DNA of 64,000 bases from Paramicrobacterium fandaimingii (GTDB lineage: Bacteria > Actinomycetota > Actinomycetes > Actinomycetales > Microbacteriaceae): positions 434,001-498,000 of the forward strand of contig NZ_CP061170.1 in assembly GCF_011751745.2 (NCBI RefSeq), given 5' to 3'. How positions within the stretch are numbered: position 1 is the stretch's first letter; each line of letters begins with the position of its first letter. A program made the translations under genes and the position numbers. The notes under the pieces were generated by a model that worked only from the letters and a program-made list of their open reading frames with translations, made no database searches and had not been told where the DNA came from. Positions 8,344 through 20,664 of this stretch are shown piece by piece.

Positions 8344-8829
8344 TCAGGAGTCTGACGGTCGCTCACCGTCGACGGAATGGATCACGCGCGCCGGTGATCC
8401 GACGACGATTGTTCGCGCCGGCACATCCTTTGTCACGATCGAACCGGCGCCGACGACGGCATCCTCGCCGATGGTGACGCCGGGGAGCACAGTGACGTTG
8501 GCGCCGAGCCAGAGGTTGCTGCCGATCGCGATGCCGCCCTGGTCTTGAAACCGGCACCCGGAAATGATGAAGACGCGTTTTCCGAGCCGGATGTTCTTGC
8601 CGAAATCTGATGTGAAGGGTGGAAACACGGTCACGGAATCGTCGACGGGTGCGCCGATCAGCCGCGAGAGCAGCTCCCGAACACGTGCAGGGTCGTTGTA
8701 ACAGCCGTTGAGCTCGCCCGTGATGCGCAGGGCTTCTTGGCTGGTCTTGTGCATCACCCCGTGCAGGGGAGAGTCGCCTGTGATGGTGCGACCCGAGTTG
8801 AGTGCCTCAAGAAGATCATCGAGTTCCAT
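8344..8829 (-). CDS. Sugar O-acetyltransferase of the left-handed beta-helix type, with apparent internal deletion
   Basis: 161 residues, shorter than the usual 185-200 of maltose/galactoside acetyltransferases. An N-terminal Mac domain (about 15-60) is followed by hexapeptide repeats ending [37 protein letters not shown]. In related proteins a segment of roughly 35 residues, carrying the catalytic histidine in a T-x-x-H or N-H-x-L context, lies between GGI-x-IG and the WIGANV repeat. Here residues GGIAIGSN (98-105) run straight into LWLGANV. The missing block suggests an in-frame deletion between two similar hexapeptide repeats, and the enzyme may be inactive. The frame and both ends look intact. 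Confidence 0.8.
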
Positions 8830-8950: not shown

Positions 8951-8967
8951 TGTAAGCGGTACCATTA
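8951..8967 (+). promoter_or_regulatory. LacI-type operator upstream of the lacI-family gene
   Basis: TGTAAGCGGTACCATTA closely matches the site at 11752 (TGTAAGCGGTAACATTA) and shares TGTAAGCG with the palindrome at 20651. It lies about 100 bp upstream of the TTG start at 9069. Autoregulation by the LacI protein is inferred. Confidence 0.6.
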
Positions 8968-9068
8968 ACCCCAAAGTTGAGCGGGGACAATGCGCGGGCC
9001 AGGTTGCGTTGATGCAGCGTGCGCGTGGAGTCTGCGAAGCACAATGATATTCAGAAAGCCGGTTCGAA

Positions 9069-10151
9069 TTGGGCAAAGCGCCAACTGTCTATGACGTCGC
9101 GGCAAAAGCCGGCGTGTCCGTAGCAACGGTTTCTCGTGTACTGCACAATCCCACCGCTGTTCGTGACAAAACTCGTGATCGAGTGATGGACATCATCCAA
9201 GAACTTGCATACCTGCCCAGCGGAAGCGCCCGGACACTAGCCACTCGCCGAAATGGGATCTTCGGACTCTTTTTTCCCGGCTTCGACGGAATCGAACAGC
9301 CTGGACCCGTCACACCGACGGATTCTGAGATAACGATTGTCGATGACACGGAATCTGGTTATACCGTTCCGCGCCCCAACACGTATTTTGATGAGGTGCT
9401 ATTCGGGGCAGAACTGGAGGCGTGGCACAGCGGGTTCGCCCTCATGGTTGCTGCTGGCCGCGGCCCTAGCCAGGAGATGATACTGAACAATATTGCCGGG
9501 CACGTCGATGGTCTGGCTGTGATCGCTCGCACCGTAGAGAATGACGTGCTGGAGCGCGTGGCTCGACGCATTCCCGTCGTTGTGGTGTCCGGGGTCCCGG
9601 ACGACGGCGCGTTCGACCATGTGGTTGTCGACAATGAGCGTGGCATGCATGCTCTGGTGGCACATTTGATTCAGACACGGGAGATCGCGAGTCTGACCTA
9701 CGTTTCTGGACCTGAGGACTCTCCAGATAATCACGAGCGCCTTCGTGGGTTTCAATCCGCGGTCGCAGACTCCGTACGAGAACTGAGATCGACAGTCACA
9801 GAACATGGTGACTTCACCCAAGAGCGTGGATTCGACCTGGGAAGCAGGCTCATCGATGAGGGAGAACTCAGCGATGTCCTGGTGTGCGGGAACGATCAGT
9901 TGGCGCTAGGAGTGCTGGATGCGTGCGCATCGCGGGGCGTGAGCGTTCCTCGTGACGTTCTTGTCTCGGGCTTCGACGGCATTGAGGCGACACTCCAATG
10001 CATCCCACGATTGACCAGTGTTCAGCAGCCGATGGCAGCACTCGGTCGGGCTGCGATGCGCATGCTAATTGCGCGATTAGACGACCCGTCACGGGAGCCC
10101 CAGACCGAACAGTTGCCCGTGCGGATTCTGCTTCGTCAGAGCACGGAGTGA
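9069..10151 (+). CDS. LacI-family transcriptional regulator of the glycan locus
   Basis: 360 residues with a TTG start. The N-terminal LacI HTH and hinge helix are clear (PTVYDVAAKAGVSVATVSRVLHNP). The effector domain ends in VLVSGFDGIEATLQCIPRLTSVQQP, typical of sugar-responsive members. Unusually, about 30 extra residues (roughly 65-100, rich in P, T, D and E) separate the first strand GIFGLFFPGF from YFDEVLFGAELEA, where most LacI proteins continue directly. AGAAAG about 10 bases upstream is a weak ribosome site. Base and codon use look more AT-rich than in the flanking genes. It converges on the sulfatase gene. Confidence 0.9.
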   Translation: MGKAPTVYDVAAKAGVSVATVSRVLHNPTAVRDKTRDRVMDIIQELAYLPSGSARTLATRRNGIFGLFFPGFDGIEQPGPVTPTDSEITIVDDTESGYTVPRPNTYFDEVLFGAELEAWHSGFALMVAAGRGPSQEMILNNIAGHVDGLAVIARTVENDVLERVARRIPVVVVSGVPDDGAFDHVVVDNERGMHALVAHLIQTREIASLTYVSGPEDSPDNHERLRGFQSAVADSVRELRSTVTEHGDFTQERGFDLGSRLIDEGELSDVLVCGNDQLALGVLDACASRGVSVPRDVLVSGFDGIEATLQCIPRLTSVQQPMAALGRAAMRMLIARLDDPSREPQTEQLPVRILLRQSTE

Positions 10152-10163
10152 GGCGGCCGCACC

Positions 10164-11603
10164 TCAATCACCGCGTTTGTCGCTTGCGCGGGCTCTGGTG
10201 TCCGTGTGGTGCGGGGCGTCACCGACGTCCCGCTGGGCGCGTACAAGTTCAGCATGCAGGTCGCGTTGAACATCAGCGTAGTCCGGGTGATCGTAGATGC
10301 TTACCATCTCATGAGGGTCGTTTTCGAGGTCGAACATCTCCCATTCAGGCTCGTAGGTTGTCTTGGCTGCTCCTCGTAACCCGAGCCCGTCGTTGTAGTA
10401 ATAGATCAACTTGTACTTCTCGGTGCGGATTCCGTAGTGGGCCCAGACATGGTGGATGCCGTCATCGTGCTCCCAATATCGGTAATAGAGCGATGTGCGC
10501 CAATCCTCGGGCTTCGGGTCGGAAAAGAGCCGCCGCATGCTTCTACCCTGCATGCGGCTCAGATTCGGAACGTCGGCGATGTCAAGGAACGTCTGGGCAA
10601 AATCAACATTGGCGACGATCGCGTCTGAGTGAGTTCCCGGTGCGATTTCAGGCGGATAGCTCATGACCAGGGGCATGCGCAATGACTCTTCGTACATGAA
10701 TCGTTTGTCGTACCACCCATGCTCCCCGAGGAAGAACCCCTGGTCCGACGTATACGAGACCAGCGTCTCGTCCTCGATGCCGCGCCTCTCGAGATAGTCG
10801 AGAAAGCGCCCGACATTGTCATCGATCGAGGCCACGCAGCGGAGATAATCTTTGATGTACAGCTGGTATGCCCACGCGGCGTACTCGTCATCTGAGAGGC
10901 CTTCGGGCGGATCTTGTTTGAGATCTCGCTTGTACAGGTGCTCGCCAACTCGCATCTTCGCGGCGGCGGGTGCCTTCGACCGGTTCTCATAGCTGTCGTC
11001 GAACGTATCTGGTACCGGAATGTCCTCCTTGAGGTACATATCGGCATGGCGCTGATCCGGCTCCCAACTGCGATGGGGCGCCTTATGAAACATCAGGAGG
11101 CAAAACGGGCGATCGGGGTCGATGCTGTCCAGCCACTCCATCGACATGTCTGTGATCAGGTCGGTGACGTATCCCGAGCGAGTGTGCTCGCCATCGGAGG
11201 TGAGAAAGACGGGATCATGGTATGCACCTTGGTCAGGCAAGATCTCCCAATAGTCGAACGCGCGAGGATTGTGCGATTCGCCGTGCCCCAGATGCCACTT
11301 CCCGACGATCGCTGTTTGATATCCGGCCTCGTGGAGCTGCGAGATGAACGTCGGCTGAGCCGAGTCAAAATGTGTGCTCAGCGTCGTAACGTGATTGACA
11401 TTGCTGTACGTTCCGGTGAGGATCGACGCTCGCGATGGAGTGCACAGAGCGTTGGTGCAAAAACAGGAGTCAAAGCGCATCCCCGCGTCGGCGATACGGT
11501 CGATATTCGGCGTCTCATTGATGGCACTGGTGTAGGCGCTGACGGCCTGCGCGGCATGATCATCGGACATGATCATGACGAGATTTGGACGTTTTGAATT
11601 CAT
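10164..11603 (-). CDS. Type I sulfatase (S1 family), glycan sulfatase, predicted cytoplasmic
   Basis: 479 residues. The cysteine-type sulfatase signature C-T-P-S-R (Cys54 to Arg58) followed by ASILTG marks the formylglycine site. Metal ligands are Asp14-Asp15 near the N-terminus, with GKWHLG at 101-106 and TSDQGFFLGEHG in the second half. Segments such as YIKDYLRCVASIDDNVGRFLDYLE and HGWYDKRFMYEESLRMPLVM recall the S1_11 group that includes N-acetylglucosamine-6-sulfatases; this is remembered similarity, not a search result. No signal peptide or lipobox is seen, so it should act on imported material. ATG 11603 begins the homology. It is divergent from the ABC importer and probably under the same operator. 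Confidence 0.9.
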   Translation of the reverse strand: MNSKRPNLVMIMSDDHAAQAVSAYTSAINETPNIDRIADAGMRFDSCFCTNALCTPSRASILTGTYSNVNHVTTLSTHFDSAQPTFISQLHEAGYQTAIVGKWHLGHGESHNPRAFDYWEILPDQGAYHDPVFLTSDGEHTRSGYVTDLITDMSMEWLDSIDPDRPFCLLMFHKAPHRSWEPDQRHADMYLKEDIPVPDTFDDSYENRSKAPAAAKMRVGEHLYKRDLKQDPPEGLSDDEYAAWAYQLYIKDYLRCVASIDDNVGRFLDYLERRGIEDETLVSYTSDQGFFLGEHGWYDKRFMYEESLRMPLVMSYPPEIAPGTHSDAIVANVDFAQTFLDIADVPNLSRMQGRSMRRLFSDPKPEDWRTSLYYRYWEHDDGIHHVWAHYGIRTEKYKLIYYYNDGLGLRGAAKTTYEPEWEMFDLENDPHEMVSIYDHPDYADVQRDLHAELVRAQRDVGDAPHHTDTRARASDKRGD

Positions 11604-11942
11604 GTGTCGTTGCCTTTCGTCGGCGAAATGGCCTTCGGAGCACTCGCGCTGGTTCCGCACGGCAACACAACGCCAACTGAACGCACTGATGCGAAATCAG
11701 TTGGAGACCGGTGTTGCACCTGGTGCTTCCTGTGCTAGTCTCGCCACCAATTGTAAGCGGTAACATTACACCGATCGCAACCCCTGAGAAGACAAGTCAA
11801 AGACCATGGGCGCGAGGTCAACGCTCTCTGAGGCCCTCGCCGACAGCGAAATTTGAGCTGCTCACAGCGGAACAGCCGACGTTGTCGTTGGCCCGTCAGT
11901 GAGCGGAGTTCGCGAAATGCGTGCGTGATGAGGAGATCAAGG
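11604..11942. promoter_or_regulatory. Divergent control region between sulfatase and ABC importer
   Basis: This 339 bp stretch holds no convincing gene. A candidate sigma70-like promoter for the importer is TTGCAC (11714-11719), a 16 bp gap, then TAGTCT (11736-11741). The LacI-type operator at 11752 begins about where transcription would start. A long untranslated leader of nearly 190 bases would precede the lipoprotein gene; I see no known riboswitch in it. Confidence 0.45.
11752..11770 (+). promoter_or_regulatory. LacI-type operator of the importer/sulfatase region
   Basis: TGTAAGCGGTAACATTACA has outer arms TGTAA/TTACA and also reads as two half-sites of a CG-centred LacI operator. It sits just downstream of the candidate -10 element at 11736, where bound repressor would block initiation. 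Confidence 0.65.
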
Positions 11943-13583
11943 ATGAAACTCAAATCTGCAGTGCGAAGGGTGGCCGTAACGGCCTTGGCTGCATCACTAT
12001 TGCTCGTTGCTGGTTGCAGCCCGCCGGAGGACGATGCTAGCTCAAAAATCACCCTGTCGATCGGCATTGGTGATGATGGGCCACCGACGATGGTGAAGAA
12101 CTTCAACCCATTCGGCACAGATAATCGACATGGCACGTTCTACATGTATGAGCCGCTCTTTGTGGTGAACACCATCAACAGCGAGAAGACGCCGTTTCTC
12201 GCCGAGAGCTTCGAAGTCGCAGACGACGCAAAATCGGTGACTTTTACGTTGCGGGACGGCGTCACATGGACTGACGGTGAAGATTTCGACGCGGAGGATG
12301 TCGTCTTCACCTTCAACATGCTCAAGGAGTACCCTGCGCTTGATCGAGGCAGTCTCTGGAGCAGCATCGAGTCCGTGACCGGAGAGGACAAAACGGTCAC
12401 GGTCGAATTCACCGGGCCCAACGCGCCAGCGGTCTCGCGCGTCGGCGAGACCTTAATCGTTCCCGAACATGTCTGGAGCGAAGTCGATGATCCGGTGACT
12501 TTCATCAATGAAGAACCGGTGAGTACCGGGCCGTATGAGTTGGGCGCCTTCAGTCCCAACCAATACTCGTTGGTCAAAAACGAAGACTATTGGCAGGCAG
12601 ATTCTGTCGTCGCAGACGAACTGGTCTTTCCCAGCACCGTCTCTGAACTGGACATTGTCAACAAAGGATACGACTGGGCATACAGCTTCTTGCCAGATCC
12701 GAAGTCGACCTGGGTCGGCAAGGCACCCGAGACCAATCGATTCTGGTGGCCGCCGGGGGCACCGACAGCGCTGTTCCTCAACAACGCGAAGCCGCCTTTT
12801 GACAATGTCGACTTCCGAAAAGGACTGTCGTTGTCTCTCGATCGAGAGGACATCTCGGAAAAGGCGAATCAGGGTTGGGGAAGCGTGGCCAGCCAAAGCG
12901 GCCTTATTCTGCCAAGTCAGAAGGACCTTCTCGATCCGGCGATTCCCGACAAAGGCCTCATTTCACAGAATTCGGACAAAGCACTCGAGGCGTTCGAGCG
13001 TGCAGGATTCGACATGAGCGATGGAAAGCTTGTTGGGGAGGACGGCGCGCAGGTCGAGATCTCCATGATGGTTCCTAACAACTACGCGAATCAGGTGCAA
13101 GCAGCCAAGGTGATCAAGAAACAACTGGCTCAGGTTGGCATCTCGCTTCGTGTCGAAACACCGCAGGCAGCGGCAGTGCAACAGAGCCTCACAAACGGCG
13201 ACTTTGAGATGACGTTCAACTGGCTCGGTGGCACGACGATGTACGACGTCTATCGGGGAGTCCTCGACTCGCGACTCACAGCTCCGATTGGAGAGGCCGC
13301 GAGCGGCAATACGATCCGGTACCAGGACCCCGAGACCGACGCCCTTCTGGACTCGCTGAAGGCTGCCGTTGACGAGGACACGCGTACCGAACTGATCCAC
13401 CAGCTCGAGCAGGTGATGATGAACGAGGTTCCGGTGATTCCGATTTACCACGGAGGAACCTGGGGGCTGTACAGCACCAAGAAGGTTACGGGATGGCCGA
13501 GCGCGGAGAATCCGTACGCTCCCGGGACGCCCTATAACACCACTGCCCTGCTCGTCGTGACCAACCTGGAGCGCGCTGGTTGA
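11943..13583 (+). CDS. ABC importer substrate-binding lipoprotein (family 5, DppA/OppA-like)
   Basis: 546 residues starting at ATG 11943 after GAGGAG. A lipoprotein signal ends in LVAGC (Cys25), so the mature protein is membrane-anchored and faces outside. The body has the SBP_bac_5 pattern: FEVADDAKSVTFTLRDGVTWTDGEDFDAEDVVFTFNM, GPYELGAFSPNQYSLVKNEDYW, and the late VPVIPIYHGGTWGLYS. Family 5 proteins bind peptides or, in several lineages, oligosaccharides. The neighbouring sulfatase, GH1 and GH172 genes make an oligosaccharide ligand more likely. Its stop overlaps the next start (TGATG), so the importer genes are translationally coupled. Confidence 0.9.
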   Translation: MKLKSAVRRVAVTALAASLLLVAGCSPPEDDASSKITLSIGIGDDGPPTMVKNFNPFGTDNRHGTFYMYEPLFVVNTINSEKTPFLAESFEVADDAKSVTFTLRDGVTWTDGEDFDAEDVVFTFNMLKEYPALDRGSLWSSIESVTGEDKTVTVEFTGPNAPAVSRVGETLIVPEHVWSEVDDPVTFINEEPVSTGPYELGAFSPNQYSLVKNEDYWQADSVVADELVFPSTVSELDIVNKGYDWAYSFLPDPKSTWVGKAPETNRFWWPPGAPTALFLNNAKPPFDNVDFRKGLSLSLDREDISEKANQGWGSVASQSGLILPSQKDLLDPAIPDKGLISQNSDKALEAFERAGFDMSDGKLVGEDGAQVEISMMVPNNYANQVQAAKVIKKQLAQVGISLRVETPQAAAVQQSLTNGDFEMTFNWLGGTTMYDVYRGVLDSRLTAPIGEAASGNTIRYQDPETDALLDSLKAAVDEDTRTELIHQLEQVMMNEVPVIPIYHGGTWGLYSTKKVTGWPSAENPYAPGTPYNTTALLVVTNLERAG

Positions 13584-14560
13584 TGTTTGCTCTGAAGAGG
13601 ATCCCTGTGTTCCTGCTCACGGTGTGGGCAGCTATCACACTGAACTTCATACTCCCGCGGCTGATGCCTGGTTCTCCCGCCGACGCTATCTTGGCCAAAC
13701 TGGCGTACAACGGACCGGTCAGCCCGGGCGCACGTGCATCCATCGAGGCAATGCTGGGAGTTCCTGACGGCACGATCTGGGAACAGTACGTGAACTATAT
13801 CGGGGCGCTCTTCCGGCTTGACTTCGGACTCTCCTACACATTTTTTCCGCAGGAAGTCTCAGTTCTCGTGGCGGACGCCCTGCCATGGACCCTGTTCCTG
13901 ATCGGCACGACATCGATTATTGCCTTCTTCATCGGCACCATTCTCGGCATTTTTGCAGCATGGAGGCGGAACGGCCGCTTCGATACGTTCGCGACTGTCG
14001 GGAGCACTTTTATCGGGACCGTGCCGTACTTTTGGCTTGCATTGATACTGCTGTTCGGCCTGGGGTACATGTCGGGGCTATTTCCCACGAGCGGGGCCTA
14101 CGGGCCGACGGCGGTTCCAGAGTTCAGCCTTGAGTTCATCATGGACGCGTTGTACCACGCTGTCTTGCCTGCCCTCTCGATCTTGATATCCGGCCTGGCC
14201 GGGTGGGTAATCGGCATGCGCAACAACATGGTCAACTCGCTCGGCGATGACTACGTCAGGTTCGCACAAGCGAACGGCCTGCGGTCGCGAACGGTAGCCA
14301 TCAAATATGCGGCACGCAATGCGATGCTTCCACAGCTGACCTCGTTCGGCATGACCCTCGGGGCAGTGGTAGGCGGCTCACTACTGACGGAAATGGTCTT
14401 CGCGTATCCGGGAATCGGGTACCTCTTGTTCAACGCACTGACGAACCAGGACTTTCCACTGATGCAGGCGTTGTTCCTCGTGATCACGTTGAGCGTGCTG
14501 ACCGCCAACTTTGTTGTGGATCTGCTCTATGGATTCCTTGACCCCAGAACTCGAAGGTGA
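13583..14560 (+). CDS. ABC importer permease 1 (DppB-like)
   Basis: 325 residues with about six membrane segments. The N-terminus has the DppB pattern TLNFILPRLMPGSPADAI, and the EAA-loop region is FAQANGLRSRTVAIKYAARNAMLPQLTSFG. It forms the transmembrane channel with the following permease. ATG 13583 overlaps the lipoprotein stop codon; a TTG three bases earlier is less likely. Confidence 0.9.
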   Translation: MFALKRIPVFLLTVWAAITLNFILPRLMPGSPADAILAKLAYNGPVSPGARASIEAMLGVPDGTIWEQYVNYIGALFRLDFGLSYTFFPQEVSVLVADALPWTLFLIGTTSIIAFFIGTILGIFAAWRRNGRFDTFATVGSTFIGTVPYFWLALILLFGLGYMSGLFPTSGAYGPTAVPEFSLEFIMDALYHAVLPALSILISGLAGWVIGMRNNMVNSLGDDYVRFAQANGLRSRTVAIKYAARNAMLPQLTSFGMTLGAVVGGSLLTEMVFAYPGIGYLLFNALTNQDFPLMQALFLVITLSVLTANFVVDLLYGFLDPRTRR

Positions 14561-14565
14561 CACGC

Positions 14566-15495
14566 ATGAGCAACACAGGCCAATTAGGCAGTACGACGAC
14601 GAACGAGGTCAGTGAAGGGCTGCGCTCATTGCCGTCCGGCTTCGAAGTGGGAAAACGCACACTCGGAGTGATCTGGATGAACAAGCGCGCACGCGTGGGA
14701 ATCATCATTTTGGCGTTCTTCGTTGGCATGGGGGTACTGGCACCATGGCTCTCCCCCTATGCTCCAGACAATGCAACGTTCGCCAGGAACCAAGGCGTTT
14801 CAGCCGCGCATTGGCTGGGGACCACAGGCGCAGGCGAAGACGTGCTCTCCCAGATCATGTACGGAACGCAAATCTCGCTACTTGTGGGACTCGTCGCCGG
14901 AGGAGGAGTCAGCGTGATCGCCGTCATCGTCGGGCTGACGGCCGGGTATCTCAAGGGATGGCGCACCGACGTCATCAACTTCTTCATCAATCTGTTCCTC
15001 GTCATTCCCTCGCTTCCCCTGATGATCGTGATCACCACCTATGTTCCTGGACAAGGCATACTCGTGATAATCGCCGTCATTGCGTTTACAGGGTGGGCAG
15101 CGGGATCGCGTGTTTTGCGGTCGCAGACCCAGACGCTTCGCTCTCGCGACTTCATTGATGCCGCGATCTTCAGCGGCGAGGGGCGATTGCGCATTCTCTT
15201 CCGGGAGATCATGCCGAATATGACCTCGTTGATCGCTGCGAGCTTTTTCGGCGCGGCGACGGCGGCGATTGGAGCCGAAGCCGGACTGTCATTTCTCGGT
15301 CTGGGAGATTTGAGCACGATCAGCTGGGGCACGATGCTCTATTGGGCGCAGAACAATAACGCGCTGTTGACCGGACAGTGGGCACTTCTGGTGGCACCCG
15401 GTCTGTGCGTTGCGCTCTTGGCCACCTCATTGGCACTCATCAATTTCGGCATCGATGCGGTCAGCAATCCGCGGCTACGGGAGAGCACCTCATGA
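14566..15495 (+). CDS. ABC importer permease 2 (DppC-like)
   Basis: 309 residues with the DppC pattern: a cytoplasmic N-terminus, FFVGMGVLAPWLSPYAPD, HWLGTTGAGEDVLSQIMYGTQISL, and an EAA loop around FIDAAIFSGEGRLRILFREIMPNM. ATG 14566 is preferred since GAAGG lies about eight bases upstream; GTG 14557 would overlap the previous stop by four bases and add three residues. It ends in an ATGA overlap with the ATPase gene. Confidence 0.9.
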   Translation: MSNTGQLGSTTTNEVSEGLRSLPSGFEVGKRTLGVIWMNKRARVGIIILAFFVGMGVLAPWLSPYAPDNATFARNQGVSAAHWLGTTGAGEDVLSQIMYGTQISLLVGLVAGGGVSVIAVIVGLTAGYLKGWRTDVINFFINLFLVIPSLPLMIVITTYVPGQGILVIIAVIAFTGWAAGSRVLRSQTQTLRSRDFIDAAIFSGEGRLRILFREIMPNMTSLIAASFFGAATAAIGAEAGLSFLGLGDLSTISWGTMLYWAQNNNALLTGQWALLVAPGLCVALLATSLALINFGIDAVSNPRLRESTS

Positions 15496-17219
15496 CGGAG
15501 CGTAATGACGATCGAATACTAGGCGTTGATCGCCTGAGCGTCGAGTATGGACAGGGCAAAGGAAGTGTGGTCGCGGTCGACGGGGTGACCTTCGCCGTCA
15601 ATCGTGGTGAATTCGTCGGCCTCGTCGGCGAATCAGGCTCAGGAAAGACGACGCTCGGCTTCGCACTGACCCGTCTTCTGACCAGCCCTGCGCGAATCAC
15701 GGGTGGCACGATTGAATTCGAAGGGCGAGACATCTCCGAGATCGGCGGGGAGGAGTTGCGGCAGATGCGGCACCGCGGAATTGCCATGGTGCTGCAGAGC
15801 GGCATGAACGCGCTCAATCCCGTCAGGACGATCCAGAATCACTTTGTCGATGTGATGAGGGCGCACGAGAAGTTGTCGAAGAAGGAAGTCCTTCGTCGGT
15901 CAATTCCGCTGCTGGAAAAGGTTCATCTTTCTCCCGACGTGCTCTCACGCTATCCTCACGAACTTTCGGGCGGTATGCGCCAGAGGACAGCGATCGCCAT
16001 CGCTCTCGCCTTGGAGCCGAAACTGATGGTTTTCGACGAACCAACGACGGCGCTCGACGTTCTCGTTCAGCGTCGCGTTGTTGAAACCATCAAAGTGCTC
16101 CAGGAGAACATGGGGTTCACCGCGATTCTCATCAGTCACGACTTAGGCCTGGTCCTTGAGACCACAGACCGAGTCATGGTGATGAGGCAGGGGGAGATCG
16201 TTGAACGCGGAACCGCGTCAGACATCCTCGAACGTCCACAACACCAGTACACTCAGATGCTTCTGGAGTCCTATGTTGATCCGAGTGGCGGGCGTGATCA
16301 GCTCCGAGAGAAACTGCTTCGGCGTGCGGACCACGCACCGGCTGACAACGCCGAGAACGACTCCGCGAGAGATCCGAATCAAGAAACGGCCCCGGCTACG
16401 ACCAGCAGCACATCCGCCGGCTGGGCAAGCCGGTCGCTGGTCGTCGAGGATGCGCTCAAGATCTATCCGGGGCGTCGGCGAGACCCTGCGGTGACTGCTG
16501 TTGACGGTGTCTCCTTCGAGCTGAATCCGGGAGAGGCTGTTGCGCTGGTCGGCGCGAGCGGCAGCGGAAAATCGACTCTCGCACGGCTTGTGTCGGGAAT
16601 GGAGAAGCCCACCTCCGGGACGGTGAGCTTTGGTGATGGACGGGTCGACAAGTACCGGTCACGGCAACTCGTCGAGTATCGACGACATGTGCAGATGGTG
16701 TTTCAGGACCCCTACTCGTCATTGAACCCACTACAGAATGTGGCGTACATTCTCTCGCGGCCACTCATCAATCACGCCCGCCTCTCCGGCGACGAATTGC
16801 TCACCAGAGCGGGGGAACTGCTGGAGCGCGTCGGTTTGACCCCCGTGAGCGCTTTCGGGGCGAAAATGCCTCATGAACTCTCGGGTGGCGAACGGCAGCG
16901 CGTCGTGATTGCACGGGCGCTGGCGTCCGAGCCGGAGGTCATCATCGCCGATGAACCGGTGTCGATGCTCGACGTATCGCTTCGTGCCGAGATCTTGAGT
17001 CTGCTTGAGGATCTCAGGACGGACCTGGGAATGAGCATGCTGTACATCACGCATGATCTTCATAGTGCACAGGCCGTGACTGACAGAACTCTTGTGCTCA
17101 ATAAAGGGCAGATCGTTGAGTCCGGATCGACCGAGCAGGTTCTGCGGCATCCGAACGATGAGTACACGCGGTCACTGATCGCGGCTATTCCGAACCCCTA
17201 CGCAAGTACGCAGCAATGA
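15492..17219 (+). CDS. ABC importer ATPase, fused DppD-DppF type
   Basis: 575 residues with two complete nucleotide-binding domains. The first has Walker A GESGSGKTT (46-54), signature LSGGMRQR (near 158) and Walker B LMVFDEPT (near 178). The second has Walker A GASGSGKST (from 354), signature LSGGERQR (near 463) and Walker B VIIADEPV. A linker of about 60 residues rich in charged residues, Ala and Thr joins them. A single fused protein replaces the two separate ATPases of typical peptide importers. The start overlaps the previous stop (ATGA). Confidence 0.92.
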   Translation: MTERNDDRILGVDRLSVEYGQGKGSVVAVDGVTFAVNRGEFVGLVGESGSGKTTLGFALTRLLTSPARITGGTIEFEGRDISEIGGEELRQMRHRGIAMVLQSGMNALNPVRTIQNHFVDVMRAHEKLSKKEVLRRSIPLLEKVHLSPDVLSRYPHELSGGMRQRTAIAIALALEPKLMVFDEPTTALDVLVQRRVVETIKVLQENMGFTAILISHDLGLVLETTDRVMVMRQGEIVERGTASDILERPQHQYTQMLLESYVDPSGGRDQLREKLLRRADHAPADNAENDSARDPNQETAPATTSSTSAGWASRSLVVEDALKIYPGRRRDPAVTAVDGVSFELNPGEAVALVGASGSGKSTLARLVSGMEKPTSGTVSFGDGRVDKYRSRQLVEYRRHVQMVFQDPYSSLNPLQNVAYILSRPLINHARLSGDELLTRAGELLERVGLTPVSAFGAKMPHELSGGERQRVVIARALASEPEVIIADEPVSMLDVSLRAEILSLLEDLRTDLGMSMLYITHDLHSAQAVTDRTLVLNKGQIVESGSTEQVLRHPNDEYTRSLIAAIPNPYASTQQ

Positions 17220-17304
17220 CGGAGTGCGCGCGATTCCCGAGCGGCCTGCCTGGTACGCGAATTCCGTGCACGATGCCGCGGCGTGTCGACGTTCAGGATG
17301 CCGC

Positions 17305-18219
17305 GTGAGTGCAGGTTCAGCACCCGTCCAGTTCGATCCCGTCGCGCCGTTCGGTGGCGACACCGTACCGATGGGGATCGAGGTCGTCGGCGTTCCTGCT
17401 GCAGCGGGAATCCTCACCGCGTACAACGCGCGGGGAATCACTCACAGCGCCGAAGCGCGTAAACCAGTGGTCATCATTCCCGGATTCACCGGTTCCAAAG
17501 AAGACTTCCGCACACTTGTTCCGCTGCTGGCGGAGCGACGTTGGCCCGTTGTGGTTTACAGCCAGCGCGGTCAGGCGGACTCGGCTGCCCCGCTGGGCGT
17601 GCACAACTACCGTCTCGATGACTTCGTCGCTGACGCCGTCATTGTGGCGACGCGTGTCGGCGGTGGACGGCCTGTGCATCTTGTCGGTCACAGCTTTGGC
17701 GGAATCGTTGCGCAACATGCTGCACTGGCGGAACCTGCTCTTTTTCGCAGCGTCACGCTCCTCTGCTCTGGGCCGTACGGGTGGCCGGGGCGCCATGCTG
17801 ACACCATGAGGATCGTCGCTGACCGCGGAAGCATCGGGCTCTGGGAGCGTGATCACCCGGGAAGGCTGGCGCTCAGCGATGCCGAACTCGGCGCAGAGTC
17901 AGCGTTCCTCCGGGCCCGCGCTCGAGCAACGTCACGCGACAATCTGCTCGCAGGCGCGCAGATTCTGCGCGATCAGGTCGACGTCACTGATCAACTCCGG
18001 CGGACTGGGATTCCCCTGCACGTCGCGCACGGCGAGTTCGACGACAAATGGCCGATCAACGATCAGCACGGCATGGCGGAGCGGTTGGGGGCCAGTTACA
18101 GCGTCATCGCTGGCGGGGCACATTCCCCGCAGCTCGAAGCGGCGGACGCGACAACTGCAGCCCTTGATGGCTTCTGGGCGCGTCTGCCCAGACCGCATCC
18201 ATCATCTAACGATCATTAA
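17305..18219 (+). CDS. Alpha/beta-hydrolase (esterase-like)
   Basis: 304 residues from GTG 17305, which has AGGA six bases upstream; the frame is open back to GTG 17224, but those 27 residues look unlike the family. The fold is clear: KPVVIIPGFTGSKEDFRTL (oxyanion region), the nucleophile elbow GHSFGG (Ser130), an acid in HGEFDDKWP and the histidine in AGGAHSP. Its place in the operon suggests it removes an ester substituent from the imported glycan or releases an aglycone; the substrate is unknown. Confidence 0.82.
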   Translation: MSAGSAPVQFDPVAPFGGDTVPMGIEVVGVPAAAGILTAYNARGITHSAEARKPVVIIPGFTGSKEDFRTLVPLLAERRWPVVVYSQRGQADSAAPLGVHNYRLDDFVADAVIVATRVGGGRPVHLVGHSFGGIVAQHAALAEPALFRSVTLLCSGPYGWPGRHADTMRIVADRGSIGLWERDHPGRLALSDAELGAESAFLRARARATSRDNLLAGAQILRDQVDVTDQLRRTGIPLHVAHGEFDDKWPINDQHGMAERLGASYSVIAGGAHSPQLEAADATTAALDGFWARLPRPHPSSNDH

Positions 18220-18233
18220 CCGAAAGGAGCATT

Positions 18234-19406
18234 GTGCCGAGCTTTCCACGTGACTTTCTCTGGGGCGCGTCAACTGCGGCCCATCAGGTCGAAGGCAACA
18301 ACGTCAACAGCAATTGGTGGGTGAAGGAGCATGCTGCGCAAACTCACGTCGTCGAGCCGAGCGGCGACGCCATGGACAGCTACCACCGGTATCGGGAGGA
18401 CATGAAACTGCTCGCGGATGCTGGTCTGAACTCGTACCGTTTCAGCGTCGAGTGGGCGCGAATCGAGCCCGAGCGTGGGTTTGTCTCGCGGGCCGAGCTC
18501 GACCATTACAAGCGCATGATCGACACCGCACGAGAGTTCGGTCTCGAACCAGTTGTGACGCTCATGCACTTCACCGTTCCTCGATGGATGCAGGACTCCG
18601 GGTTCTGGCGTGCGGCAGATGCGCCCGATCTTTTCGCGCGATACACCGAGATGGTCCTGCCGATTCTCGACGGCGTTCGCTACGTGTGCACCATCAACGA
18701 GCCGAACATCGCGGCGATGCTCGCGGGCGGCGAGGACGCGGCGAATCTTGTGGCATATGGGCTGCCGAACCCGGACCTCGGTGTCGCTGACGCCCTTCTT
18801 GAGTCGCACCGAAGGTCGCGCGAGGTGCTCTCGAGCGTGAATGGGCTGAAGAGTGGCTGGACCGTCGCCACACAGGCATTCCACTCGACGGGGGAGCCGG
18901 GTGCCGACGAGAAACTTTATGAGTACGGCTATCCGCGCGACGACTGGTACCTCGAGCAGTCGGCTGGCAACGACTTCGTCGGCGTGCAAGCGTACACTCG
19001 GACGTTTATCGGTCCCGAAGGTCCACGGCCCCGCGCTTCCGATGCCGAAAAGACATTGACTGGCTGGGAGTACTTTCCCGCTGCGCTGGAACTCGGCGTG
19101 CGAAGCGCCTGGGAGCTGAGCGGGAACGTGCCGATCATGGTGACGGAGAATGGTATAGCGACAGCGGACGACAGCCGACGGGTCGACTATACAGACGCGG
19201 CGCTGCGTGGCCTCCAATCAGCGATGGCCGACGGCGTCGAGGTGCTCGGTTATCAGCATTGGAGCGCGCTCGACAACTTCGAGTGGGCGAGCGGTTTTGC
19301 TCCGACGTTTGGGCTGATCAGCGTAGACCGTGAAACGTTCGAGCGCACCCCCAAGCCGAGCCTTGCGTGGCTGGGCGAAATTGCTCGCCGGGGATCTCTG
19401 AACTAA
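18234..19406 (+). CDS. Glycoside hydrolase family 1 (beta-glycosidase)
   Basis: 390 residues from GTG 18234 behind AAAGGAG. GH1 marks are the N-terminal FLWGASTAAHQVEGNN, the acid/base Glu156 in INEPN, the nucleophile Glu305 in VTENGI and the late YQHWSALDNFEWASGF. Many GH1 enzymes have 440-480 residues, so this is a compact member. There is no signal peptide, so it acts inside the cell on imported oligosaccharide. It probably ends the importer operon, 15 bp after the hydrolase gene. Confidence 0.93.
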   Translation: MPSFPRDFLWGASTAAHQVEGNNVNSNWWVKEHAAQTHVVEPSGDAMDSYHRYREDMKLLADAGLNSYRFSVEWARIEPERGFVSRAELDHYKRMIDTAREFGLEPVVTLMHFTVPRWMQDSGFWRAADAPDLFARYTEMVLPILDGVRYVCTINEPNIAAMLAGGEDAANLVAYGLPNPDLGVADALLESHRRSREVLSSVNGLKSGWTVATQAFHSTGEPGADEKLYEYGYPRDDWYLEQSAGNDFVGVQAYTRTFIGPEGPRPRASDAEKTLTGWEYFPAALELGVRSAWELSGNVPIMVTENGIATADDSRRVDYTDAALRGLQSAMADGVEVLGYQHWSALDNFEWASGFAPTFGLISVDRETFERTPKPSLAWLGEIARRGSLN

Positions 19407-19506
19407 TCTCCGCGGGGCGTCGTCCGGTGAAGATCGGGTTGAGGTGAGCATGTCGCAGCGATCCGACGTCGACATAGGTCACGCGCGTGCTGGATATTCT
19501 CGCCGA

Positions 19507-20607
19507 TCAGAGAGGCTCGAGTTCGTCGACGTTCGGAAGTTGAGGCCGCGACGTCGATGTCCGATCAAGGTAGAAGAACGCTGTAGACGCAATGTCATCG
19601 TGCCGCTGGAGGTACCGGCGGCGCGACCGCCAGCCCAGTGCCTGCACCTGAACCCGCAGTCGCTCCGCGAACCTAATCGGGTCGAGAACGTGCCATCGGT
19701 ACATGCCGAATCGCTGTTGGCTCTCGTAGAGTCCGTCAGGACGGATCACTTGATGGAGCCCGAGGTACGGAGTCGAGTACAGAGCGTATCCCTCACCCGG
19801 GACGTTAAAGTCCCATGCTCCACCGAAGTAGTCCTCGGTCCCCGTGCCGTTGATCGTCGGGTAAGCGGTGTCGCTGTCCATGAAGAACTTCATCTCGCCT
19901 TCGCCCCACCAGCCGCGACTGGTGACTCCCCATGCCAGGTAGGTTCCGACATAGTGCCCACGACCCTCAACGTCGTCGAGCAATACGTGTTCAGCTCCGC
20001 TGGTGAGTGGATTGCTTCGGTGCCAATGCGCGTGAAACCACCCGTTCGAGCCGGGTGGTCTGCCCTCGTCGTAGGTGATCTCGTAATACAGGTTCTGCGG
20101 GGTGTCGCTGAGGTTTTCCACAGTGACCCGCGCCCGTGAATGAAACGGCATCGGCCAATACGAATTGAGACCGCCATTCGGCGCGACCGTCACGGGGATT
20201 GAACTGAGGTGGGCATATTGTGCCCACCCTTGCCCAAAGAAGTCTCCAAGCGGTGTCTCCACAGCAGGTTGCTGGTCACTGTCCCAGTACATCCGGAGCA
20301 CCATCTCGCGCCACGCCTCGTGGCCGGTCGTCATCCAGATGTGGCGAATTGTGCCAGCGCCGTTGACATCGGCGATCTCGGCAGTTGTTCCCGGCTCTAC
20401 AACGATGTTCGGGGATACTTTCCAACCCGGGCCGAGCTCTCGAGCGAAGTTGGCTCCAGTCCCCTCGATAGCGCTCCCGCCGCCACTTGGAGCCCCGTCG
20501 CGGTTCTCCGGACTGATTGAGCGTGTCACGGTGTTGCGGATGCTGGCGAGGCCCTCGACACCACCTGGATGTTGGGCCTGATGATCTTGACTTTCGGTGC
20601 CCTGCAC
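19507..20607 (-). CDS. GH172-type glycosidase (DUF2961 protein)
   Basis: 366 residues from GTG 20607, preceded by AAGGAGG about ten bases upstream. DUF2961 is marked by GTIRHIWMTTGHEAWREMVLRMYWD, WWGEGEMKFFMD and GTGTEDYFGGAWDF. Characterised members of family GH172 act on fructofuranose or D-arabinofuranose linkages, including difructose dianhydride and mycobacterial arabinan. Candidate catalytic acids are Glu238 in GEGEMKFF and Glu258 in TGTEDYF, by position relative to the motifs. No secretion signal is visible. It converges on the GH1 gene and carries its own LacI-type operator. Confidence 0.85.
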   Translation of the reverse strand: MQGTESQDHQAQHPGGVEGLASIRNTVTRSISPENRDGAPSGGGSAIEGTGANFARELGPGWKVSPNIVVEPGTTAEIADVNGAGTIRHIWMTTGHEAWREMVLRMYWDSDQQPAVETPLGDFFGQGWAQYAHLSSIPVTVAPNGGLNSYWPMPFHSRARVTVENLSDTPQNLYYEITYDEGRPPGSNGWFHAHWHRSNPLTSGAEHVLLDDVEGRGHYVGTYLAWGVTSRGWWGEGEMKFFMDSDTAYPTINGTGTEDYFGGAWDFNVPGEGYALYSTPYLGLHQVIRPDGLYESQQRFGMYRWHVLDPIRFAERLRVQVQALGWRSRRRYLQRHDDIASTAFFYLDRTSTSRPQLPNVDELEPL

Positions 20608-20650
20608 GATGCGCCGACCTCCTTGTCGTCGGTACGTATTCCTCGTCTAC

Positions 20651-20664
20651 TGTAAGCGCTTACG
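20651..20664 (-). promoter_or_regulatory. LacI-type operator of the GH172 gene
   Basis: TGTAAGCGCTTACG is a near-perfect CG-centred LacI palindrome, 44 bp upstream of the GTG start on the minus strand. It is the most symmetrical of the three sites. A possible TTGCCT / TACAGT promoter pair on the minus strand would place it between -35 and -10. Confidence 0.65.

Follow-up and report, generated by a model that had tools for sequence, protein, structure and literature searches.

The analyzed window comprises 64,000 nucleotides (bases 434,001-498,000) of the 3.62-Mb single-contig genome of Paramicrobacterium fandaimingii (Microbacteriaceae). It contains a gene island with a LacI-family regulator, an S1 sulfatase, a family-5 importer, and enzymes of glycoside hydrolase (GH) families 1 and 172. 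With moderate confidence, we propose that the island encodes a LacI-controlled, probably horizontally gained import-and-trim pathway for a sulfated, furanose-capped beta-1,2-gluco-oligosaccharide or glycoside. The joint pathway suggested in the initial annotation of the locus is supported by a conserved core in related genomes and by the recurrence of the importer, GH1, a sulfatase, and GH172 in an operon of Brachybacterium-type genomes. Each protein family is already known, and every gene named in that annotation was confirmed by Pfam; the combination, its apparently independent assembly, and a GH172 clade with Asp at a specificity position are new. The genes are as follows.

9069..10151, + strand: LacI-family regulator (Pfam PF00356, PF13377)
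10164..11603, - strand: S1-type sulfatase with SGSH_C (Pfam); CTPSR motif; no signal peptide by eye
11943..13583, + strand: SBP_bac_5 family-5 solute-binding lipoprotein (PF00496; lipobox LVAGC by eye)
13580..14560, + strand: importer permease 1 (BPD_transp_1, PF00528)
14557..15495, + strand: importer permease 2 (BPD_transp_1, PF00528; OppC_N)
15492..17219, + strand: fused double ATPase (two ABC_tran stretches in one protein)
17224..18219, + strand: alpha/beta hydrolase, possible esterase (Pfam; present in 6 of 15 core loci)
18234..19406, + strand: GH1, candidate SGR_2426-like beta-1,2-glucosidase (E156, E305, Q214, W278)
19507..20607, - strand: GH172 (DUF2961), ExoMA1-like (Asp266 at the position of ExoMA1 Asn253; E236 and E258 conserved)

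The ATPase start at 15492 is an internal Met that we chose; the listed open reading frame starts at 15378. The best NCBIfam match of this protein is GsiA, with a score below the GsiA cut-off. No signal peptide was recognized by eye on the sulfatase, GH1, or GH172, and the solute-binding protein (SBP) carries a lipobox, so that import would be expected before digestion.

The importer belongs to a conserved and widespread operon of the Microbacteriaceae. We define this core as LacI, the family-5 SBP, two permeases, and the fused ATPase, sometimes with the alpha/beta hydrolase and usually with GH1. In our sample of 299 Microbacteriaceae genomes, 96 had SBP matches at E 1e-60 and 50 at E 1e-110; the latter cut was chosen after inspection of the list. 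We compared 15 core stretches of up to 18 kb around the SBP, in which genes were called with a simple custom script. LacI, the SBP, both permeases, and the ATPase are present in all 15, and GH1 is present in 12, where it is 71-81% identical to the window GH1. The window LacI is 45-53% identical to its counterpart in 13 of the 15 stretches and 30-31% identical in the remaining two. Two further core loci (L182 and L183) retain LacI through GH1. The sulfatase and GH172 are absent from all 17 of these loci from other Microbacteriaceae. The full combination, which the annotation had called unfamiliar, was not found in the literature searched, which leaves out most subscription papers; the core itself, however, is a widespread operon with an SGR_2426-like GH1. 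SBPs of Bifidobacterium breve (P0252) and B. longum (P0312) are 46% identical to the window SBP, and the core operon may therefore extend to gut bifidobacteria. In two loci (L052:10976-13219 and L053:4906-7152), a GH35 gene lies beside a variant core that lacks GH1 and has a different operator-like site, TGTAACCGGTTACA. A GH35 enzyme that cleaves beta-1,2 bonds is described in the accessible part of PMC8861115.

The sulfatase and GH172 initially appeared to be unique additions to this core. This reading was overturned by the Brachybacterium-type operons. GH172 matches at E 1e-130 occur in 39 of the 396 sampled genomes of the order. The best two outside the own genome are from G658 and G370 (family code f12, genus code g96). 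The G658 protein matches P0123 of Brachybacterium subflavum (Dermabacteraceae), and G370 has the same genus code. Like the window, the loci of these two genomes (L190 and L192) encode an importer (SBP, two permeases, and ATPase), GH1 (72% identical), a sulfatase (54%), and GH172 (73-74%), and they share the same operator type. Unlike in the window, all of these genes are co-directional, the sulfatase is of another clade, and a second, different sulfatase follows the operon; the alpha/beta hydrolase is not among the matches listed for the two operons. Downstream of the operon in L190 (L190:12969-18883), the second sulfatase is accompanied by an M24 peptidase gene and a GH78 rhamnosidase gene. 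Solved sulfatases match this second sulfatase only distantly and give no hint of its substrate. Among the 13 genomes of genus code g96 in the match list, two have this type of GH172. Four further loci from the 41 listed GH172 matches (L194-L197) contain no importer, GH1, or sulfatase; two of them have a LacI of 28-29% identity and two have a second GH172 match.

The annotation had proposed conserved co-occurrence in other Microbacteriaceae as a check. None was found within the family, whereas the set does occur in these two closely related genomes of another family. The sulfatase has matches in 29 of the 299 family genomes (the own genome included), and four of the 29 also carry the core SBP. 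The two genes lie 1.8 kb apart in the own genome and at least 122 kb apart in the other three. We thus rejected the idea that the sulfatase and the core form a common Microbacteriaceae set. No copy of the window core was seen around the sulfatase in 17 of the 31 other family matches or in 80 contig loci (80 of at least 588 confirmed stretches), many of which are cut by contig ends. Plasmid searches gave only relatives below 60% identity. At least 120 protein relatives each were listed for the sulfatase, GH172, and the SBP. For two of them, P0002 (sulfatase, 80%) and P0243 (SBP, 75%), the longest contig given has 78,305 bases and comes from source 'lgn'. It is presumably the same contig in both cases, which suggests a second locus of the window's type there.

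The phylogenetic trees indicate different histories for the parts of the two operons. Two sulfatase trees were built, the first with 75 rows and the second with 24, using 39 and 11 of the listed relatives. The 24-row tree joins the window sulfatase to P0002 and P0003, and the Brachybacterium-type sulfatases to those of the FGE-locus type (FGE, formylglycine-generating enzyme). A sister relationship between the window and Brachybacterium-type sulfatases was rejected by the approximately unbiased (AU) test (p 4.8e-5; 6e-4 when P0002 and P0003 are added), although these values are somewhat generous because the groups were named after the 75-row tree had been seen. In quick trees of the SBP and GH1, the backbone of the Brachybacterium-type operons falls among cores of other Microbacteriaceae and is separate from that of the window, with weak support around the window GH1. 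Two trees were not used: that of the ATPase, which has long branches and an unsupported placement of the Brachybacterium pair outside the other cores, and that of LacI, which places L190 beside L051. In the GH172 tree (86 rows, 65 of 119 listed relatives, quick method, with a long-branch warning for L065), the window protein, P0122, P0123/L190, L192, and P0124 belong to a single clade (SH-aLRT 98 and 100) whose members all carry Asp at the specificity position. Given the non-sister sulfatases, the differing importer backbones, and the single GH172 clade, it seems that the enzymes came together on at least two occasions, with a GH172 of the same origin, and this in turn argues for one substrate. 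A single transfer of the whole set is thought to be less likely, since the sulfatases do not form one clade and the two backbones are apart in the trees of the SBP and GH1.

The window GH172 is closest to ExoMA1 (8ic8; E 2.7e-145). Its E236 and E258, which we take by analogy to be the catalytic pair, are kept in all 14 aligned rows. The accessible text of PMC10509167 describes ExoMA1 as an exo-alpha-D-arabinofuranosidase in which Asn253 blocks fructose. This position is Asp266 in the window protein. Asn is found in 68 of the 86 tree rows and Asp in nine (seven distinct proteins), and three of the Asp rows belong to a second lineage. The nine family relatives of 56-61% identity all have Asn, and at least six of them lie beside D-arabinan-type genes (DUF4185, an FGGY kinase, and fucose-isomerase-type or SBP_bac_1 genes; one representative per gene cluster was tested with Pfam). 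These neighborhoods, together with the large family and many contexts of the sulfatase, would fit a looser arrangement in which the regulator is common but the substrate is not, with the sulfatase scavenging sulfate and GH172 handling D-arabinan fragments. We regard this as rather unlikely, because both enzymes were also recruited to this type of operon in the Brachybacterium-type genomes, where the sulfatase is not a sister of the window's, and the GH172 clade of the window differs from the nine relatives at the specificity position. A D-arabinan locus of the mycobacterial type was rejected on the basis of Asp266 and the different importer type. The GH183 (DUF4185) endo-D-arabinanase profile PF13810 had no match in the own genome, but 14 control genomes were equally silent.

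The window sulfatase is closest to a group of solved structures comprising 5g2v (an N-acetylglucosamine-6-sulfatase), 7p24, 9s03, and others, including 7lha (an exo-L-galactose-6-sulfatase). All members of this group score at least 339 bits, and the next match scores 138 bits. The Cys, Pro, and Arg of the C-x-P-x-R active-site motif are kept in all 18 aligned rows. D299 and R301 correspond in the alignment (counted by hand) to D361 and R363 in BT4656, which we take to be residues of its recognition triad, and they are also present in all 18 rows; H389 is a conjectural candidate for the His of the triad. According to the accessible text of PMC10154612, S1_11 sulfatases recognize O3 through His and O4 through Asp/Arg, their C2 region varies, and some members accept L-galactose; the region that reads the N-acetyl group at C2 is absent in about half of them. 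A sulfated N-acetylglucosamine oligosaccharide (chito-, mucin-, or glycosaminoglycan-type) would agree with the closest solved sulfatase and with the chitin-oligosaccharide-binding protein among the closest solved relatives of the SBP. However, the GH1 is of the beta-1,2-glucosidase type, Pfam detects no hexosaminidase family among the operon proteins, and about half of the S1_11 members lack the region that reads the N-acetyl group; such a substrate is therefore highly improbable.

Other sulfatase loci were seen in the course of this comparison. The own genome has one FGE match, and one block (L070; G000:C1:3174000-3192000) holds a second S1 sulfatase (57% identical), a further sulfatase, an NMT1-type SBP, a permease, a ROK protein, and FGE. 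Several sulfatase loci of the Microbacteriaceae contain gene clusters found in this block, which looks like a locus for sulfate-ester scavenging. An S1 sulfatase lies near a different Opp-type importer in L077:6520-16212, L084:1050-10019, and L081:1513-10192. L077 contains a GH3 gene by Pfam, and L084 has a gene of the same blast cluster; these loci possibly represent another pairing of a sulfatase, an importer, and a beta-glucosidase.

The nature of the sugar backbone is indicated by GH1. Its best solved match is SGR_2426 (8kap; E 1.9e-135). In the accessible text of PMC12369401, this Streptomyces enzyme is a beta-1,2-glucosidase that prefers sophoro-oligosaccharides; Gln229 is important for this preference, Trp291 is important in recognition, and residue 171 is hydrophobic. 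Gln229, Trp291, and Met171 correspond to Q214, W278, and I159 of the window GH1 (numbering matched by hand on the alignment). Q214 and W278 are invariant in the 13 aligned rows, the window included, and L190 and L192 keep both as well as Ile159. PF10091 genes, which we presume to be GH144, accompany the core in four relatives. In L042 and L182 (L042:10230-12014; L182:7113-8837), the gene lies between those of LacI and the SBP, and the 5' end of its called frame has an operator match. In L043 and L183, it lies beside GH1. PF10091 was detected in 18 of the 299 family genomes, and 16 of these 18 carry the core SBP, versus 34 of the 281 others (Fisher p 5e-12, although related species are not independent and the genome lists were copied by hand). 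Taken together, the SGR_2426-like GH1 with its specificity residues and the PF10091 genes in or beside four relatives' cores suggest that the backbone is probably a beta-1,2-linked gluco-sugar, and the widespread family-5 import operon probably serves beta-1,2-glucosides.

The same pathway might instead act on a sulfated glycoside with an aglycone (a glycolipid, a saponin, or a flavonoid sophoroside) from which GH1 trims beta-1,2-linked glucose. Sophoro-sugars are reported mainly as sophorosides, and the authors of PMC12369401 speculate about alkylated ones in the part of the paper available; the lack of a PF10091 match in the own genome, the alpha/beta hydrolase in the operon, and the GH78-type rhamnosidase gene downstream of the operon in L190 would also suit such a substrate. 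We nevertheless consider it unlikely, because PF10091 genes accompany the core in four relatives and the closest solved SBP relatives are labeled as oligosaccharide- or peptide-binding.

We infer that the products of the island act on one substrate, as follows. The SBP and the Opp-type ABC importer would import a small beta-1,2-linked gluco-oligosaccharide or glycoside. Its end sugar, of gluco (or L-galacto) configuration, would carry a 6-O-sulfate, and the molecule would be capped by a furanose of alpha-D-arabinofuranosyl or similar type. In the cytoplasm, the S1 sulfatase, matured by the FGE of the genome, would remove the sulfate, GH172 would remove the furanose, and the alpha/beta hydrolase may remove an ester. 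GH1 would release glucose after the sulfate and the furanose are gone. The sulfated, furanose-bearing substrate of the annotation thus fits the enzyme families and is narrowed to a probable beta-1,2-gluco backbone, whereas the ester part is represented only by the alpha/beta hydrolase, which is found in six of the 15 core loci. More tentatively, and with less than even confidence, the substrate could be an undescribed beta-1,2-gluco glycan or glycoside with a 6-O-sulfate and an unusual alpha-furanose, for which a dedicated actinobacterial operon was built at least twice and an Asp-type GH172 clade acquired a new specificity.

Several points weigh against the proposed pathway. A beta-1,2-glucan with both sulfate and furanose groups is not known to us. 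Only three of the 18 genomes (G078, G191, and G225) have PF10091 within 10 kb of the core SBP; a fourth case, G043, was missed by the genome profile search and found by hmmscan, so that negatives of that search are not exhaustive. The own genome has no PF10091 match (the GH192-194 glucanases were not searched), and the closest solved relatives of the SBP are labeled as peptide-binding or chitooligosaccharide-binding. Arabinofuranosidase activity is uncertain, since ExoMA1 has Asn at the position of Asp266. The second GH172 lineage (P0156 and P0202/L196) has Asp too, and the L196 locus has no importer, GH1, or sulfatase. The L190 and L192 stretches are about 95% identical in DNA, so that they represent a single recurrence. 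The data may also be explained by one transfer, after which the sulfatase and importer genes were replaced. The same unusual combination of enzymes was apparently assembled independently, and this is good evidence from genomes for a common natural substrate, which to our knowledge has not been isolated so far. The enzymes and the binding protein named here can be assayed with mostly available sugars, and a GH172 clade with an altered specificity residue is singled out. Genes near the L196 GH172 (L196:8262-9509) encode, among others, an FGGY kinase and an alcohol dehydrogenase of the iron type.

Three operator-like sites flank the units of the island.

8951..8964, + strand: site 1, TGTAAGCGGTACCA, upstream of lacI; 11 of 14 positions match the relatives' operator
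11752..11765, + strand: site 2, TGTAAGCGGTAACA, between the divergent sulfatase and SBP genes; 12 of 14
20651..20664, + strand: site 3, TGTAAGCGCTTACG, upstream of GH172; 13 of 14

The relatives' operator is the palindrome TGTAWGCGCWTACA. Of 19 loci, 17 (both Brachybacterium-type ones among them) carry it with 13-14 of 14 matches, at a distance of 27-210 bases upstream of the estimated start of the SBP; L052 and L053 do not. About 0.5 sites in total are expected in base-shuffled copies of the 15 core stretches. The annotation had described three related operators. Sites 1 and 2 are indeed near-identical, with 16 of 17 bases in common, and a search with site 2 allowing up to three mismatches gave two matches in the window, itself included, with 0.01 expected. 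Site 3 shares with them chiefly the left half, TGTAAGCG, yet it is the one closest to TGTAWGCGCWTACA. TGTAAGCG occurs three times in the window, with 0.75 expected, and three of 100 shuffles reach this count. The pattern TGTAAGCGNTNNCR, composed after the sites had been seen, has four occurrences in the genome, three of them at this locus. Its reversed control has three, so that the count is ordinary and only the placement is unusual. Site 1 alone is no better than the matches at 11531 and 44010 in the window (both 11 of 14). One LacI probably controls all units of the island, and the units may be co-induced.

Known systems resemble parts of the island. The GH1 of the S. griseus beta-1,2-glucan cluster SGR_2422-2427 is of the window's type and agrees with it in the specificity residues. 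That cluster has an ABC importer and a gene annotated as acetyl-esterase, where the window has the alpha/beta hydrolase; it also has a Lin1841-type binding protein and GH193, and the accessible text of PMC12369401 mentions neither a sulfatase nor a GH172. In contrast, the window has a family-5 SBP, a fused ATPase, a sulfatase, and GH172, and its genome has no PF10091 match (GH193 was not searched). The window SBP (PF00496) is thus not of the Lin1841 type, which we take to be another SBP family than family 5. The D-arabinan locus of Microbacterium arabinogalactanolyticum shares with the window an ExoMA1-type GH172 without a signal sequence and an ABC importer, as far as the available part of PMC10509167 shows. 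However, the window has Asp in place of Asn253, a sulfatase, and a family-5 importer, whereas the relatives of that locus type examined here have SBP_bac_1 importers. The Bacteroides S1_11 enzymes BT4656 and BT3177 are sequence relatives of the window sulfatase, with a Cys-type motif and the aligned Asp/Arg pair, but in the accessible text of PMC10154612 the Bacteroides S1_11 enzymes serve host glycans, the heparin-type ones in the periplasm; the window sulfatase is probably cytoplasmic and acts behind an ABC importer.

The island was probably gained horizontally, with loss in the congeners as the alternative. The interval from YajQ to LysR-PutA spans 1.8-3.2 kb in all four congeners versus about 14 kb in the window, and the GC content of the island is 59.1% versus 64.2% in the rest of the window. 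No island genes are listed at this site in the four congeners except a LacI of 28% identity in one; DJ-1 is listed there in two and an acetyltransferase in one. A short hexapeptide-repeat O-acetyltransferase gene (8344-8829) adjoins the island in the window. It probably lies outside the island because G199, a congener without the island, has a 66% identical relative in the same position.

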